Shown one piece after another: positions 7,518 to 19,912 of a stretch of DNA of 58,004 nucleotides; positions within the stretch are counted from its first letter, which is position 1, and each line of letters begins with the position of its first letter. This stretch comes from Pelagibacteraceae bacterium AG-325-C10 (lineage in GTDB: Bacteria > Pseudomonadota > Alphaproteobacteria > Pelagibacterales > Pelagibacteraceae): contig QBYD01000006.1 of assembly GCA_003282975.1 (NCBI GenBank), positions 1 through 58,004 on the forward strand, given 5' to 3'. Under the pieces are notes generated by a model that saw nothing but the letters and a program-made list of their open reading frames with translations, did no database searches and was not told where the DNA came from. Made by a program: the position numbers and the translations under genes.

Positions 7518-9443
7518 TTATCCTTTACCACGCCATGGAATATATCTGTCTATAAGTTTTCTTAAAGTTACATCAAATAAAAGACCAAGAAGACCCATAA
7601 TAATTATCGTTATCCAAATAACCTCCCACTGAAAGTATTTTTTAGCCACGTTTTCAACAAAACCAATACCAGTGGTTCCAGCTAAAAATTCAGCTGCAAC
7701 TAATGTTCCCCAACACATACCAACAGCAACCCTTATTCCAGTTAGAATTTCTGGAAGAGAATTAGGAAAAATAACGTGTCTTAAGATTTGTTTTTTTGAA
7801 GCTCCTAATGAGTGGGCAGCATGAATTTTTGATAATTGGGTTCCTGATGCACCAGCTCTAGCAGAAATAATCATAATAGATAACGAGACCATAAATAATA
7901 AAAATACTTTTCCAGAGTTATCAATTCCAAGTACAGAAATAATCAAAGGAGCCCAAGCAAGTGGCGGAACAGGTCTGTATAATTCTATTAATGGGTCAAA
8001 GAAACCTTTTGCAAATCTATTTAGACCCATAAATAATCCTAAAGGCACACCGATAATTATTCCAAAAACTAATCCTAAAAATACTCTCATAAAAGAGTCC
8101 CAAATATGCCCGTATGGAACGGGAACTTTAAATAATTTAAAGTCACCTGTAACAACTTTTAAAACGTTACTTTTAAAGTTTTCTTTAACTATACCTTCTT
8201 TAGTATGAACTGGATATTTACCTGGTAAGATATCAGCTATCCAATCTGGTAAAATGAAGCCTATCATTTTACTTACATCAACCATTTCAACCCATAAAAG
8301 AGGAACATTTTTATATCCAACACTTGGTTTCGACAGCAAAACAAATTTGTTAAAAGTGTCAGATGGTTTTGGAAGCCATCTTCCTGAACCTTGTTCAGAA
8401 CAAGTTGCTCCACTAGCCACAATTGTTCCTGCAGGAAATAAAAGTATATCTATTAATTTTAGCCCACCTTGTTCTTTACCTTGCAATTTATCAAACTCAA
8501 GTATTGCTGCTTGCATTTCGTTTAATGCGTTAGGAGGGTAGATGCTTGCAAACTCTATTCTTCTTGCAATTTTTACAATGTTTTTACCATAATCAGATGC
8601 CATCTCTTCACTATCGTCCAATCCTTTTCTGTAAGCTTTAATGTCATCTTTTAGTTGTTTGATTGAGCTTTTGAATTGTGGGTTATGGTTTCTTAACTTA
8701 AAAAATTTATCATTAATTAATTTTAATTGTTTTGCAGCTACATGAAATTTTAAACCTTTTTTGGTTTGCGGTGCTGTTGGTATTTCAATAGTATTTTCAA
8801 TAGAACCACTTCCAGAATCTATTGTGATAATTCCCCATCCACCTTGTTTATCAATAAGTTTTTGTCTTTCAATTTTTTGAGTATCTGTTTCATTAGGATA
8901 ATCTTTCTTTTGAAAATTAATACTAAGTTGCTTTATTTGCTCAGTCATTTCTTGAATTTTTATTTTGGTATCCATTTCCATTAACTCTTCACTAGTTAAG
9001 AATGGAATTAATTTAGAGGTTCTATCAATGTAACTTACTAGGATTGTTTTTTGTTGATCATTTAAGTTAAGTGAACCTTTTATTTCATTTGCAATTTTTA
9101 CAAGATTTTTATTTTCAATTTTAATAATGGACGTGCTTTTGAATTCTCTTTCTTCAATAGGGAACTGATATTTTAATCCTAATAATGACTCATTTATTTT
9201 AGCAACTTGACATAATTCATTAGCTGATTTTGGATAAAAACCTCTTGCAATATCCCATGAATAATAAAGCCACAGCATTAATATTACACTGCTACCAACA
9301 ATTACCCAGTGCGTTCCACCTTTAGCTCTTTCTGGGTTACCAAAAACAGCATCTACTTTTTCAGTTCTGATTAATCTTCTTCCATAAAGAATACATCCAA
9401 TAATTGAGAGGATAATAAGTATTGTTACAGTTTGAGTTAACAT
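7518..9443 (-). CDS. tauC: Taurine-type ABC transporter permease with large extracytoplasmic insert
   Basis: Membrane permease of a taurine/sulfonate ABC importer. The C-terminal ~210 residues are a normal TauC/SsuC domain with an EAA-like loop (AHSLGASKKQILRHVIFPNSLPEI) and about five helices. It is 641 aa instead of the usual ~270. Before the permease domain are two helices (about 3-22 and 48-66) and some 360 residues that should lie outside the membrane, rich in Lys, Asn and helix-forming segments. These could capture or gate the binding protein. ATG directly abuts the tauB stop codon, so translation is coupled. The insert is not a recognised substrate-binding fold by eye. Substrate is inferred from the adjacent tpa and ald genes. 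Confidence 0.87.
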   Translation of the reverse strand: MLTQTVTILIILSIIGCILYGRRLIRTEKVDAVFGNPERAKGGTHWVIVGSSVILMLWLYYSWDIARGFYPKSANELCQVAKINESLLGLKYQFPIEEREFKSTSIIKIENKNLVKIANEIKGSLNLNDQQKTILVSYIDRTSKLIPFLTSEELMEMDTKIKIQEMTEQIKQLSINFQKKDYPNETDTQKIERQKLIDKQGGWGIITIDSGSGSIENTIEIPTAPQTKKGLKFHVAAKQLKLINDKFFKLRNHNPQFKSSIKQLKDDIKAYRKGLDDSEEMASDYGKNIVKIARRIEFASIYPPNALNEMQAAILEFDKLQGKEQGGLKLIDILLFPAGTIVASGATCSEQGSGRWLPKPSDTFNKFVLLSKPSVGYKNVPLLWVEMVDVSKMIGFILPDWIADILPGKYPVHTKEGIVKENFKSNVLKVVTGDFKLFKVPVPYGHIWDSFMRVFLGLVFGIIIGVPLGLFMGLNRFAKGFFDPLIELYRPVPPLAWAPLIISVLGIDNSGKVFLLFMVSLSIMIISARAGASGTQLSKIHAAHSLGASKKQILRHVIFPNSLPEILTGIRVAVGMCWGTLVAAEFLAGTTGIGFVENVAKKYFQWEVIWITIIIMGLLGLLFDVTLRKLIDRYIPWRGKG

Positions 9444-11461: not shown

Positions 11462-12808
11462 ATGAGCTCAGAAAATAGAACTTCAGTTCCAAATTCATTA
11501 AATGAACATTGGATGCCATTTACATCTAATAAAGATTTTAAGGCTAATCCAAGATTAATTACTGAAGCAAAAGGAGTTTATCTAAAAACTCATCATGGAA
11601 AAACACAAATTGATGCAAGCTCAGGATTATTTTGTAATCCATTAGGACATGGAAGAAAAGAGATTACTGAGGCAGTTACTAAACAATTAGAAACTTTAGA
11701 TTACGCACAACCTTTCCAACAAGGTTTTGGTGGATCATTTGAATTAGCCTCAAAAATTGCAAAACATACACCAGGTGATTTAAACAAAATGTTTTTTACA
11801 ATTTGTGGATCTACAGCTGTTGAAACAGCAATCAAAATTGCTGTTGCCTATCATAGAGCAAAAGGTAATGCACAAAGATTTAGATTTGTAGGACGTGAAC
11901 GTGGATACCACGGAATGAATATAGGATGTGTTTCAGTTGGAGGAATGGTCAATAATGTAAAAACATTTGCAAGTATTTTAATGCCAGGTGTTCAACACAT
12001 TAGACATACTCATTTACCAGAACATAAATTTGTAAGTGGACAACCTGAAACAGGGGATTATTTAGCAAATGATTTAGAGACTATTTGTCAAAATTTTGGT
12101 GCTGAAAATATTGCTGCTTGTATCGTAGAACCAATTGCAGGATCAACAGGAACTTTAGTTCCACCAAAAGGTTATTTACAAAAATTAAGAGAGATATGTG
12201 ATAAACATGGAATTCTTCTAATTTTTGATGAAGTGATTACTGGTTGGGGTAGAACAGGATCTAAATTTGGAGCTCATGAGTTTGGTGTTACTCCAGATAT
12301 TATGACAATGGCAAAAGCAACTACAAATGGCGTTGTACCAATGGGTGTCGTTGCTTGTAATGATTATATTTACGATGCTGTAATGGATGCTTCACCAACT
12401 GGTGCTGTTGAATTATTTCACGGTTATACATATTCAGGAATTCCAGTTGCAGTAGCAGCTGCGCTAGCTGTACAAGATATTTTTGAAAAAGATGATATTT
12501 TTAATAGAGCAAAAAATTTAGCACCTTATTTTCAAAAAGGTTTATTTTCCCTTCAAGATTTAGAGTCTGTAGATAATATAAGAGGTTACGGAATGATGGG
12601 TGGAATTGATATGAAATTAAATACAAGACCGGGTAAAGCAGGTTTAGAAACATTTAAAGCTTGTTATGAAGCAGGGGTAAATTTCAAAGCGACTGGTGAT
12701 TGTTTAATTATTGCTCCACAATTTATTTGTGAGGAAAAACATATAGATGAGATAATTGATAAACTTAGAACTGGTATTACAAACTATCAAAAAAATCAAA
12801 AAAACTAG
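11462..12808 (+). CDS. tpa: Class III aminotransferase, probable taurine:pyruvate aminotransferase
   Basis: PLP-dependent omega-aminotransferase (448 aa, matching Tpa length). The PLP-phosphate binding stretch GSTAVETA is at 116-123, the pyridine-nitrogen Asp in LIFDEVITGWGRTG at 256, and the Schiff-base Lys in MAKATTNG at 285. With taurine and pyruvate it would give sulfoacetaldehyde and alanine. Two neighbours support that assignment: a TauABC-type importer runs divergently, and alanine dehydrogenase lies 35 bp downstream to regenerate pyruvate and release ammonium. Alternative omega-amino donors (beta-alanine, GABA) cannot be excluded from sequence alone. AAGGAAAG about 8-15 nt upstream serves as ribosome-binding site. 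Confidence 0.87.
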   Translation: MSSENRTSVPNSLNEHWMPFTSNKDFKANPRLITEAKGVYLKTHHGKTQIDASSGLFCNPLGHGRKEITEAVTKQLETLDYAQPFQQGFGGSFELASKIAKHTPGDLNKMFFTICGSTAVETAIKIAVAYHRAKGNAQRFRFVGRERGYHGMNIGCVSVGGMVNNVKTFASILMPGVQHIRHTHLPEHKFVSGQPETGDYLANDLETICQNFGAENIAACIVEPIAGSTGTLVPPKGYLQKLREICDKHGILLIFDEVITGWGRTGSKFGAHEFGVTPDIMTMAKATTNGVVPMGVVACNDYIYDAVMDASPTGAVELFHGYTYSGIPVAVAAALAVQDIFEKDDIFNRAKNLAPYFQKGLFSLQDLESVDNIRGYGMMGGIDMKLNTRPGKAGLETFKACYEAGVNFKATGDCLIIAPQFICEEKHIDEIIDKLRTGITNYQKNQKN

Positions 12809-16738: not shown

Positions 16739-17449
16739 TTAGTTTTTATAGATGTATATGAAATTATCTTGATCAGGATTATTTTCATTATTAATCTCTT
16801 GTATTTTGTAAAAAGGCTTGACCATGTTAAAAGGTTCTTTTAATAAATTAATTTTTCTATGTTGACCTGTTGGTATCTCTTTATTTTCAACAATACTTTC
16901 ATAGTTATTAAATGCAAAATACTTACAATTTGATTTTTTTAAATTTATTAAAATCTTTTTAATTATTGGAATTGGCAAATGAATAAAAAAATCCCTCATT
17001 AATATAAAATCATAATTATCAAATTTTTTATACTCACTTAAATCTTTACAATAAAAGTTTATATTTGATCTTGATTTAAATGATAATTCATTTTTAAATA
17101 TTAAATCTTCAACAATATCAATTCCAGTGTATTTTATGTCGGTATCAAAAATTTTACTTATCCACGCACAATCACCACAAGGTGCATCCAAAATATTTTT
17201 TATATTATTCTCTATAAAAAATTTTTCTAACTCTGAAATTAGGCTATTAGTTTGAATTGAGTTAGCAACAGAACCTGGTCCTGAATAAGATTGGTTTTGG
17301 TTAAATTTTTGACTCTTGTTCCAATGGTTAGATTTATAAATTGAGTTAAAAACAATCTTATTTATTAGTTTTTGACTTACAAGATTTGAAATAAAACTAT
17401 TAACGAATAGTTTTCTGATCCAATAATGTTTATTAAAATATTTACTCAA
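16739..17449 (-). CDS. SAM-dependent methyltransferase, class I
   Basis: A 236-aa protein with a class I methyltransferase core. Motif I is NILDAPCGDCAWISKI (about 89-104), the acidic end of strand 2 is YTGIDIVEDLI, and motif IV is FDNYDFILMRDFFIHLP. The N-terminal 80 residues are Asn/Lys-rich and unassigned. It lies alone between a small membrane protein and the broken tRNA-Met copy, in an especially AT-rich stretch. That fits accessory DNA such as surface-polysaccharide or small-molecule modification genes. The acceptor substrate is not evident. Confidence 0.78.
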   Translation of the reverse strand: MSKYFNKHYWIRKLFVNSFISNLVSQKLINKIVFNSIYKSNHWNKSQKFNQNQSYSGPGSVANSIQTNSLISELEKFFIENNIKNILDAPCGDCAWISKIFDTDIKYTGIDIVEDLIFKNELSFKSRSNINFYCKDLSEYKKFDNYDFILMRDFFIHLPIPIIKKILINLKKSNCKYFAFNNYESIVENKEIPTGQHRKINLLKEPFNMVKPFYKIQEINNENNPDQDNFIYIYKN

Positions 17450-17487: not shown

Positions 17488-17515
17488 TTGAAACCTAACT
17501 TAAAAGTAGTATAAA
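17488..17515 (+). promoter_or_regulatory. tRNA-type sigma70 promoter retained at the broken tRNA-Met
   Basis: TTGAAA (17488-17493) and TATAAA (17510-17515) with 16-bp spacing, 11 bp before the first base of the truncated tRNA. It looks fully functional although the tRNA is not. The sequence differs from the promoter of the intact copy. Confidence 0.6.
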
Positions 17516-17526
17516 GCTAAAAATAT

Positions 17527-17603
17527 GGCGGGGTAGCTCAGTTGGTTAGAGCGCAGGACTCATAAGCCTGAGGTCAGTGGTCGTTATCCTTGTTCCTATT
17601 ACC
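17527..17603 (+). pseudogene. Truncated/degenerate tRNA-Met copy
   Basis: Bases 17527-17581 are identical to the first 55 bases of the intact tRNA-Met at 19307, covering acceptor 5' strand, D-arm, anticodon arm (CAT) and the start of the T-arm. From the T-loop on the sequence diverges: no GTTCGA, no T-stem partner, and a 3' acceptor strand that no longer pairs. A rough echo of the lost 3' end remains, ending in TTACC. It reads as the left junction of an inserted segment, or as a decayed duplicate. Confidence 0.8.
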
Positions 17604-17608
17604 TTAAT

Positions 17609-17728
17609 TCATCTTCTATAGAATCTTGACACACTCCTGACACACCTAGGAGGAAAAAAAAAGTGACAAGGGGAAACAGAATATCTTTTTAACAAACCAA
17701 GAACCACGATCCCTAAAAATTTTTTCAT
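17609..17728 (-). pseudogene. 5' remnant of a second copy of the secreted hydrolase
   Basis: On the minus strand an ATG overlaps the TAA stop of the hydrolase gene (TAATG) and opens a 39-codon frame beginning MKKFLGIVVLGLL. This closely copies the hydrolase's own N-terminus (MKKILGIVVLSLL). After about 13 codons the similarity ends and the DNA resembles the hydrolase's upstream region (TGTGTCA repeats) instead. It is the stub of a tandem paralogue whose body was deleted. Confidence 0.65.
17627..17645. repeat. TGACACAC direct repeat pair (left)
   Basis: TGACACAC at 17627-17634 and again at 17638-17645, separated by TCC. The same pair with the same spacer occurs at 19216-19233, on the other side of the hydrolase gene. 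Short directly repeated heptamers beside a tRNA junction resemble integrase arm-type sites, but no integrase is present. Confidence 0.6.
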
Positions 17729-19164
17729 TATTTTAAAGCGTTAACAAAAAATGGGACAGCTATTTCAACAGTTTCTTTTCCATGATCTCCACCAGTTGTG
17801 ACTCCTCTTTCTCCACATTTTTTGTACGCTTTAATATATAGCTTTTTATATAATTTATTGGCTGCCCCCGGTTTTGTAGATGCCTTCTCAAATTTTTCCC
17901 TCCATTTTTTTAAATCCATATTAAAGGCTTCTTTAAAAATATCGGTTTGTTTTTCATGAATAAACCCATCATCATTCATAACCCACCCTTCAGGAACATA
18001 AATTTCACATTTATTAAAATGTACAGCATCAGCGCTGCGGTTAGGTGGTGCATCATTATAAAAGCCATGGTACCAACCTTCTTTTACAATTACCTCAACA
18101 TCGCCTCCTGCTTTTTTCATTTTGTCCGCATAAGCAACACAAAACTTTGCAAGTGTATAATCATCAGCACCTCCAAGTAAAAATAATATTTTTGCAGGAG
18201 TTGGGGTTGGTTTATCAAATGCTACATTAAAACATTCTGGAGCCATTGGAAGTGAAGCTTTGTAATAATTTTCTTCTCCAAGAATTACATCTGAGTATTT
18301 TTTCTCTACTGCCATATTTGAAGCCATTCCACCTCTTGAATGACCTGTAATACCTAATTTTTTTGCATCCACTCTTGGGTGTTTATCCAGTATTTTATAA
18401 GCTACTAAAGCATCTAGCTCTCCAGCATTTACAGAAACTTTACCTTGATTAGAACCTGTACTTTTTACTCCTCTACCTGTAAAACTATCTATTTCAAAAA
18501 TACCAATATTATTTTTTAAAAGTTGATTTTTAAAATCGTTACGCCAAGACTGAGTTGGGGATGTAAAGCTACTGGGCCCTCCGCTACCATGAGCAACTAC
18601 AACAACTGGTAAATTTTTACCTTCCTTTGGTAAAATTAATTTTCCAGATACTTCAACAGGAGAGTTTACATAAGATCCATTGATTATTGTTAAGGGAATA
18701 CCAGGATTGTAGCTAGTAAATTTTATTATTTCCTCTGTTGCTTCACTTAAATATTTTAAAGGGATAAAATGCGGAGGACGATTTACTCTAAAAAACCTTC
18801 CATTGCATTTCAAAGGAGGATTCCATGAAGTTCCACCTTTTAAGATTGCTTCTTTATCATTAATAAATTTACCCGAGTAATAAATAATGTCTTGACCTCC
18901 TTTTTTAAAGGTTAGTGATTGGGAAATTTTGATTATATTTCCTTTAATTTTTCCTTTAAATTTTATATTTCTAGCCCCATATCTATTAAATGGCCTTAAT
19001 GAAAATTCATTGTTTTCTACATTTACAACAAAAGCAGACTCATACCATTCATATTTTCCTTGTTTACATAGAATATCCATTTTCCATGAATTGGGGTATT
19101 CTTCAGCTAATAAATTATTGTTAAACAATAAACTTAGAACCACGATCCCTAAAATTTTTTTCAT
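17728..19164 (-). CDS. Secreted two-domain alpha/beta-hydrolase (dienelactone-hydrolase-like)
   Basis: A 478-aa exported protein with a signal peptide ending near LLAEE, a beta-rich N-terminal domain (about 25-130) and a C-terminal alpha/beta-hydrolase domain. The oxyanion segment is VVVVAHGSGG (187-196) and the nucleophile elbow GHSRGG has Ser276. An Asp in GGADDYT and a His in WYHGFY complete a plausible triad. Substrate unknown; an ester, lactone or small peptide in the periplasm is likely. It is the only intact gene in the segment between the broken and intact tRNA-Met copies. Downstream lies the stub of a second copy. Confidence 0.82.
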   Translation of the reverse strand: MKKILGIVVLSLLFNNNLLAEEYPNSWKMDILCKQGKYEWYESAFVVNVENNEFSLRPFNRYGARNIKFKGKIKGNIIKISQSLTFKKGGQDIIYYSGKFINDKEAILKGGTSWNPPLKCNGRFFRVNRPPHFIPLKYLSEATEEIIKFTSYNPGIPLTIINGSYVNSPVEVSGKLILPKEGKNLPVVVVAHGSGGPSSFTSPTQSWRNDFKNQLLKNNIGIFEIDSFTGRGVKSTGSNQGKVSVNAGELDALVAYKILDKHPRVDAKKLGITGHSRGGMASNMAVEKKYSDVILGEENYYKASLPMAPECFNVAFDKPTPTPAKILFLLGGADDYTLAKFCVAYADKMKKAGGDVEVIVKEGWYHGFYNDAPPNRSADAVHFNKCEIYVPEGWVMNDDGFIHEKQTDIFKEAFNMDLKKWREKFEKASTKPGAANKLYKKLYIKAYKKCGERGVTTGGDHGKETVEIAVPFFVNALK

Positions 19165-19189
19165 AATCTCTAAACGTTACTATAAATCC

Positions 19190-19233
19190 TGACACACTAA
19201 AAATACATAAATACCTGACACACTCCTGACACA
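19190..19233. repeat. TGACACAC repeats (right)
   Basis: TGACACAC at 19190-19197 and 19216-19223, and TGACACA at 19227-19233. The last two reproduce the TCC-spaced pair seen at 17627-17645. They lie between the hydrolase start and the promoter of the intact tRNA-Met. Confidence 0.6.
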
Positions 19234-19262
19234 GTAAGAAGGAAAACAAGGCAAATACTTGA

Positions 19263-19290
19263 TTGCAGAAAAAAATAAAACTATTATAAA
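19263..19290 (+). promoter_or_regulatory. Promoter of the intact tRNA-Met
   Basis: TTGCAG (19263-19268) and TATAAA (19285-19290) with 16-bp spacing, 16 bp before the tRNA. It differs in sequence from the promoter at the broken copy, as expected if this promoter arrived with the inserted DNA. Confidence 0.5.
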
Positions 19291-19306
19291 TCAACGATAA
19301 TTAAAC

Positions 19307-19383
19307 GGCGGGGTAGCTCAGTTGGTTAGAGCGCAGGACTCATAAGCCTGAGGTCAGTGGTTCGATCCCACTTCCCGCTACCA
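19307..19383 (+). tRNA. tRNA-Met (CAT), elongator type
   Basis: A 77-nt cloverleaf. The acceptor strands GGCGGGG/TCCCGCT pair with G-T closures, the D-arm is GCTC...GAGC, the anticodon loop is CTCATAA, the T-arm is AGTGG TTCGATC CCACT and CCA is encoded. Position 31/39 of the anticodon stem is A-G. G1 pairing with position 72 and the absence of three G-C pairs at the anticodon stem argue against initiator tRNA. A lysidine-modified tRNA-Ile (CAT) is less likely. The convergent apt stop codon begins one base after the CCA. Confidence 0.93.
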
Positions 19384-19384
19384 A

Positions 19385-19912
19385 TTAATGTCCTGGAAAC
19401 TTTATTAAATTTTCAACTTTATAATTTTTTTTAATTAAATTATCAGATCCTTCTAGATCAAATAAATCAATAACAAATACAAAAGCTGAAACCTTACTTT
19501 TTGACATTTCAACAAGTTTTGCGGCAGCTTCTGCTGTACCTCCAGTTGCAATTAGATCGTCAATTATTAAAACACTATCGTTTTTATCCAATGAATCTTT
19601 ATGAACCTCAATTGTGGCTGTTCCATATTCAAGTTTAAAATCAATTGAATGAACATCGGCAGGTAATTTATTTTTTTTTCTAAGCATTATAAATGGTTTT
19701 TTTAAAATGTAGGAAACTGCTGAAGCAAAAACAAATCCACGAGACTCGATTGCAGCAATTTTTGTAAAATCATATTTTTTGGATCTTTCAACTATTTGAT
19801 TAATTGTTTCTGCAAAAGCATTTTCATCTTTTATTAAAGTTGTGATATCTCGAAAAAGAATTCCTTTTTTAGGATAATCTGGTATTGATCTGATATATTT
19901 TTTTAAATCCAT
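19385..19912 (-). CDS. apt: Adenine phosphoribosyltransferase
   Basis: Cytosolic enzyme converting adenine and PRPP to AMP (175 aa, typical). The N-terminus MDLKKYIRSIPDYPKKGILFRDITTL is diagnostic in pattern, IESRGFVFA carries the adenine-site segment, and the PRPP loop VLIIDDLIATGGTA lies at about 114-127. It is divergent from a nucleosidase-like gene with only 5 bp between the two ATGs. Together they recover adenine released from methylthioadenosine, a by-product of the spermidine synthase encoded just beyond. Confidence 0.96.
   Translation of the reverse strand: MDLKKYIRSIPDYPKKGILFRDITTLIKDENAFAETINQIVERSKKYDFTKIAAIESRGFVFASAVSYILKKPFIMLRKKNKLPADVHSIDFKLEYGTATIEVHKDSLDKNDSVLIIDDLIATGGTAEAAAKLVEMSKSKVSAFVFVIDLFDLEGSDNLIKKNYKVENLIKFPGH

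Follow-up and report, generated by a model that had tools for sequence, protein, structure and literature searches.

A probable mobile mini-island that replaces the promoter and 5' half of its tRNA-Met target in a Pelagibacteraceae genome

Mobile elements that insert into tRNA genes usually duplicate the 3' end of the gene, keeping its original promoter. SAR11 bacteria are very abundant and have tiny genomes with few recognised mobile elements and a strong gene turnover at the level of strains. Here, we analysed a 58,004-nucleotide stretch of DNA from Pelagibacteraceae bacterium AG-325-C10 (contig QBYD01000006.1; hereafter the window, which is one entire contig of a genome that is 80% complete, in 41 contigs), in which a tRNA-Met gene occurs twice, as a 5' fragment and as a complete gene, on the two sides of a gene for a secreted hydrolase. 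The segment that starts within the left fragment and ends within the complete gene is very probably a mobile mini-island that was integrated by the integrase route proposed below. Comparison of the locus across 399 genomes of the genus shows repeated insertion, promoter replacement, repeats with the geometry of putative arm sites, integrases in relatives and the loss of the integrase here. Genomes and loci of this sample are designated by G and L numbers, respectively.

The closest described systems are the tRNA-targeting islands of tyrosine integrases (scheme of Williams 2002, as summarised in PMC8371274). Our locus resembles them in the insertion into a tRNA gene, in the restoration of this tRNA, in direct-repeat arms beside the core and in an integrase at one end of the complete relatives, and it differs from the usual islands in that the 5' half and promoter are replaced and not the 3' end. 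The flanking repeat is a part of the tRNA gene with one complete copy, and both empty and occupied sites are present among relatives; an integrase is absent from the window element but found in homologous elements. Expression of the restored tRNA from a promoter of the element is also a property of the pTN3-like integrated elements of Thermococcales; however, those archaeal "suicidal" integrases have the attachment site inside their own gene, whereas the SAR11 integrases are uninterrupted and lie beside the site. Marine phage satellites (VEIME/PICI-like) are matched by one related element (L187) and partly by another (L188), in which an integrase is accompanied by replication or packaging genes, unlike the window element, which bears only a cargo hydrolase. 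Tycheposons, which occur in Prochlorococcus and are reported from tRNA-Met of Methylophilaceae as well (PMC10872708), are likewise cargo elements at tRNA genes of streamlined plankton, with a tyrosine recombinase in complete members and tRNA-Met among their sites. They are reported to measure 4-200 kb and to have a distinctive deep-branching tyrosine recombinase, whereas the window element measures 1.8 kb and has no recombinase. Among the papers searched for SAR11 together with tRNA-Met and islands, none describes the locus. Integration into a 5' half is a known but rare mode, and the recurrent, largely integrase-less use of one SAR11 tRNA gene by several element families has, as far as could be checked, not been described. 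Reuse of one tRNA gene by short promoter-swapping elements would be a concrete route for the turnover of SAR11 genes such as nuclease- and helicase-like genes, restriction systems and secreted enzymes, and a rarely reported mode of tRNA integration becomes testable in a large natural set.

Nucleotides 1-55 of tRNA-Met are present twice on the forward strand of the window, at 17527-17581 and 19307-19361, with 55 of 55 positions identical and sharp divergence thereafter. ARAGORN calls the right copy alone, as a complete tRNA-Met(CAT) at 19307-19383; the left copy departs from the tRNA at nucleotide 56, although a faint likeness to the tRNA 3' part stays (CCTTGTTCC..TACC). The 5' flanks of the two copies are unlike each other (0.62 identity over 60 nucleotides), and hexamers resembling promoters lie upstream of both: TTGAAA-16-TATAAA before the left copy (17488-17515, forward strand; seen by eye and missed by a consensus scan that demanded T at the last position) and TTGATT-17-TATTAT before the right one (19259-19287, forward strand; found by the consensus scan). 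As promoter-like matches in the region are not commoner than in shuffled sequence, these hexamers are no proof by themselves. The left one is presumably the former host tRNA promoter, and the right one, whose flank is common to the right ends of other elements, would be supplied by the element. The original prediction, made from the letters of this stretch, had read the locus in the same way, as an exact 5' repeat whose left copy has lost its 3' part and kept a promoter while the complete right copy has a different one, the reverse of the usual 3'-end duplication, and all of this was confirmed. In the closed genomes checked there is exactly one complete copy of this tRNA-Met in each, so its function must outlast every insertion. 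The same layout of fragment and complete gene in the closed single-contig genome G377 speaks against a misassembly of the window copies. A search of G000 alone did not find a second copy of the element.

In the mechanism that we propose, a tyrosine integrase would recombine the sole chromosomal tRNA-Met gene with an attP site that contains the 5' half of a tRNA-Met together with its promoter. At the left junction (attL-like, 17527-17581) the 5' half and promoter of the host would remain, linked to the end of the element, and the tRNA function would be lost. At the right junction (attR-like, 19307-19383) the promoter and 5' half of the element would be joined to the host 3' half, which would restore the tRNA. 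The attP junction in this model would connect the right-end promoter of the element and tRNA nucleotides 1-55 to CGTTATCC..TTGACACAC, and the TGACACAC repeats with their 11-bp spacing would serve as integrase arm sites. With its integrase gone save for a ribosome site and a few codons, the window element would either have been moved in trans, which is plausible for integrase-less elements, or be a fixed relic.

Replacement of the promoter can be followed in relatives, where the conserved order is dmgdh, a small gene, tRNA-Met and apt, and where cargo lies to the left of tRNA-Met, to the right, on both sides or is absent (G354, G112 and G055 have none at this locus). In the window apt occupies 19385-19912 on the reverse strand (Pfam Pribosyltran); it is the conserved right neighbour and right edge of the hotspot, and adjoins either tRNA-Met or an island in relatives. 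Members of a family have conserved right ends of about 100-150 bp, which include the arms and the promoter of the tRNA (7/7 for TGGTCC and 4/4 for TGATCACA), and the flanks of the left fragments are diverse and often equal the flank of a single-copy tRNA-Met elsewhere. For instance, the identity of the G468 and G424 left flanks to the flanks of tRNA-Met in G031, G047 and G087 is 0.92-0.97, and the complete tRNAs of G468 and G424 bear the element flank. The clearest case is G468: as far as the end of the adjacent gene, its left flank agrees with that at the empty sites of G047, G031 and G087, and its complete tRNA stands directly before apt and has the same upstream flank as in the G382 and G294 elements. 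By comparison, the matched pair of G468 (occupied) and G047/G031 (empty) shows the putative old promoter on the fragment and the new one on the intact tRNA. It had been predicted that the element restores the tRNA with a 5' half and promoter of its own, and that empty sites and other cargo would be found at this gene; relatives bear out each of these.

A 5' tRNA-Met fragment to the left of a complete copy is present in at least 23 of the 399 genomes, i.e., the window and 22 relatives, including G232, whose contig stops before the complete copy. As contigs often break at this locus, an occupancy of 6% is a lower bound. The layout consists of the fragment (nucleotide 1 to 42-63), 1-7.6 kb of cargo and the complete gene; the fragments end at nucleotide 42 (G062), 49, 52-53, 55-58 or 63, the last being a constant breakpoint in 7/7 TGGTCC elements. 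The left ends are conserved over about 100-150 bp, and 19 of the 23 contain paired direct repeats, spaced by 11 bp, of which the first starts 97-102 nucleotides past the beginning of the tRNA. A lag scan of the 23 left ends found at least 8/9 repeat matches at lag 11 in 14 of them (0.7% in shuffles) and no such pair at the other lags from 7 to 24, and a chance origin of the repeats was rejected on this basis. Such spacing is the geometry expected of integrase arm sites. The repeat is TGACACAC in the window, G062, G271 and G232, TGATCACA in G077, G447, G385 and G321, TGGTCCACTG in seven genomes, GATCACACA/GAACACACA in G266 and G472, GGGCACACA in G301 and a CTCCA/TTCCA pair in G416.

The repeat pairs that had been predicted just inside both ends of the window element are of this type: TGACACA(C) units, 11 bp apart, at a fixed position as in relatives. 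The left pair, TTGACACACTCCTGACACAC, occupies 17626-17645 on the forward strand (unit starts 17626 and 17637), at +98 to +100 as in the relatives, and the right arms, CTGACACAC at 19189 and 19215 and CTGACACAG at 19226, span 19189-19234 on the forward strand and belong to a right end with homologues in L162, L163 and L164. Exact CTGACACAC occurs at three sites in the window, all within the element; with one mismatch there are nine sites against 4.1 expected.

Integrases at tRNA-Met were found with L188 as the query. In G301 (L188) and G266 (L187) tyrosine integrases start at +134 and +136 after the fragment, respectively (PHROG 1; PF00589 shown for G266), and related integrases in G363, G424, G294, G468 and G382 adjoin the complete tRNA and read away from it. 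Those of L187, L188 and L250-L253 are of full length (314-329 amino acids), lie beside the site and are not split by it. Besides its integrase, L187 (5.5 kb) encodes a terminase small subunit and an AAA/primase-like protein, whereas L188 (4.6 kb) encodes an integrase and a primase-like protein; because of the primase-like proteins, and in G266 also the terminase small subunit, both elements resemble phage satellites. The G468 and G382 elements carry genes that, by sequence appearance, read as a type I restriction system. With PF00589, most of the 36 genomes scanned had a single integrase, and only in G082 was it at the locus; the off-locus ones are probably of the XerC/D type.

Most elements of the 5' type have no integrase, and the window element, with no integrase open reading frame (ORF) between its two tRNA copies, is one of them, as predicted. 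The alignment of its left end to the left end of L188, which encodes an integrase, has E=1.7e-5 and extends from the tRNA through the arms as far as the integrase's ribosome site and start codon. At the latter position the window has a decayed start (17648-17690, forward strand: AGGAGG, GTG at 17663, nine codons and a stop), and L164 (G271) keeps 17 codons. The sequence between tRNA fragment and arms, a degenerate tRNA-like 3' half (17582-17625, forward strand), is conserved with L164, L166 (G232) and L188, and G271 shares both window ends (left 75%, right 78-83% identical) around other cargo. Comparison thus shows the window element as a member of the group that has lost its integrase. What such a loss may look like is seen in G472 (L192), where an integrase start codon and about 11 codons, at about +135, are followed by unrelated cargo, a presumed snapshot of the process.

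The two copies could in principle have arisen in other ways. A tandem duplication of the tRNA-hydrolase unit with later decay of the left copy would account for the three repeat pairs that flank the hydrolase and for the faint tRNA similarity in the 3' part of the left copy. We consider it barely credible, as the repeat blocks, all in direct orientation, are ordered D1-D3-D2 (tRNA, arms, signal peptide) on the left but D2-D3-D1 on the right, which excludes such an origin; moreover, the spacings are unequal (1780, 1589 and 1436), identity stops sharply after 55/55 positions, and the cargo that these ends enclose is different in relatives. The original prediction had named this duplication as one of the findings that would speak against it. 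It is also very improbable that a usual 3'-duplication island was inverted or rearranged so as to mimic a 5' duplication. Elements with 3' fragments do occur at this gene (nucleotides 31-77 in G097, G116 and G315; 28-77 in G082, one copy inverted), but in the 5'-type loci apt stays on the 3' end of the complete tRNA and the host left flank on the fragment, with no inversion, and the closed G377 has no matching 3' fragment elsewhere.

Homologous recombination without any integrase, in which incoming DNA with a tRNA-Met copy leaves a partial copy behind as in replacement-type flexible islands, deserves more weight than these two and is still unlikely. Most elements here are without an integrase, tRNA-Met offers a long identical stretch, and tandem accretion is seen in L039 and L042, where both flanks are alike (0.95 and 0.88, respectively). 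It would not, however, predict a breakpoint fixed at nucleotide 63 in 7/7 TGGTCC elements, the constant distance and 11-bp phase of the arm repeats, integrases adjoining several elements, or left ends conserved over about 100-150 bp. Integration by an integrase has its own difficulties. Most of the genomes compared are drafts. The left flank of the window has no close counterpart among single-copy sites (best match 0.75), so the exact empty site was not reconstructed, and the nearest cargo-free relatives, G354 and G112, already bear an element-type tRNA flank. The original prediction had called for integrases in relatives with the same arms beside tRNA-Met; integrases are there, but none with exactly TGACACAC arms, the nearest having GGGCACACA or GATCACACA. 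In viral contigs the TGACACAC pair gave 29 matches, some near integrase-like ORFs and none at tRNA-Met. No circular form or excision was seen. All of these observations weigh against the integrase route. Scans of viral contigs gave no match to TGGTCC arms and no confirmed L188 integrase, and none of the three scans yielded a free form; in isolate phages, integrases are only about 28% identical and the tRNA genes are unrelated.

A further reading concerns the cargo. When the right-integrase family is set aside, 19 left ends remain, and 14 of these have an ORF whose first codon lies at +134 to +139 from the tRNA start. It is a full integrase in two and the truncated integrase in G472; the other 11 have cargo longer than 100 amino acids there. 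As cargo in these 11 begins where the integrase starts in others, we tentatively suggest, as a possibility somewhat short of even chances, that SAR11 tRNA-Met hosts cassettes mobilised in trans, in which the integrase frame was swapped for cargo at the start codon. They would be moved by the integrases of satellites or islands, the host promoter would pass to the cargo and the new promoter to the tRNA. The ORFs at +134 to +139 lie directly behind the orphaned tRNA promoter, and its use by the cargo, which we infer from this position, might explain why it is retained on the broken copy. This does not apply to the window, where the hydrolase is read from the opposite end. In the cargo of relatives, Pfam recognises an HNH nuclease in G008, zinc-finger domains in G442, a ResIII-domain helicase in G377 and, in G077, a trypsin-like protease that also has a PDZ domain; it gave no match for others.

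As to the crossover, the original prediction had placed it in the T-loop; the fragment ends fit the anticodon arm at least as well. The 3' fragments at the same gene start mostly at nucleotides 28-31 (G082, G097, G116, G315; in G326 at 30 and 46) and the 5' fragments extend to 42-63, so a crossover common to both, if there is one, would lie at about 31-42, in the anticodon arm. In G062 the fragment has a hybrid 29-43 stem pair (A29, C43), and this single decayed case may hint at the same arm. We infer a crossover in the anticodon arm or the T-arm. Three islands with 3' fragments are a second, usual-type element family at this tRNA: L062 (G116), L073 (G097) and L201 (G315) lie to its right, end in nucleotides 31-77 and have a nearly identical sequence of about 100 bp upstream of the fragment. 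An element of the opposite type at the same gene is L254 (G082:C1), in a closed genome, where the complete tRNA-Met is followed by a 12-kb island with an integrase and two 3' fragments (nucleotides 28-77; 9012-9060 and 12161-12209) in opposite orientations, each preceded by the same sequence of about 50 bp, with TTGTGACAGAGTTGTGACA repeats. A viral contig (L262; IMG/VR 3300030103_002951) carries CGTACCATATACGTACC repeats 11 bp apart and a complete tRNA-Met whose 29-43 stem pair is hybrid; the contig record has no PF00589 integrase. Similar repeats precede tRNA-Met in G089 (L052).

The cargo of the window element is a single ORF between the tRNA copies, encoding a secreted alpha/beta-hydrolase of 478 amino acids with a signal peptide (17728-19164, reverse strand; Peptidase_S9/DLH-like by Pfam). 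Orthologues at 65% or above are present in about 11 of the 399 genomes. In G344, where the gene is located beyond apt, its nucleotide identity to the window copy is 93.5%, compared with about 80% for the flanking core genes; the hydrolase was thus acquired horizontally. Right after its stop, at about 17691-17728, the start of the signal-peptide gene occurs a second time in truncated form (MKKFLGIVVLGLL.., repeat D2, 80% identity; feature 17609-17728, reverse strand, overlapping the hydrolase stop; seen in translation), which the earlier reading had missed. The first dozen residues of the window hydrolase are MKKILGIVVLSLL, while most orthologues begin MKKII-LIILSL; it seems that the signal-peptide module was swapped. 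The same start is found on unrelated cargo of the G271, G447 and G385 elements, and the element thus seems to exchange cargo behind a common signal-peptide start. The start common to otherwise unrelated secreted cargo reads MKKxLGIVVLSLL (window 19127-19164 and 17691-17728; L164, L171, L176 and L180).

Integrases also adjoin the tmRNA gene in L204 (G321:C19) and L205 (G240:C3), a second tRNA-like integration site in the genus. In the window itself, a methyltransferase-like gene (16739-17449) lies between the small gene and the tRNA fragment. As a 42%-identical homologue is located between tRNA-Met and apt in G088 (L064), the window gene may be cargo of an earlier island.
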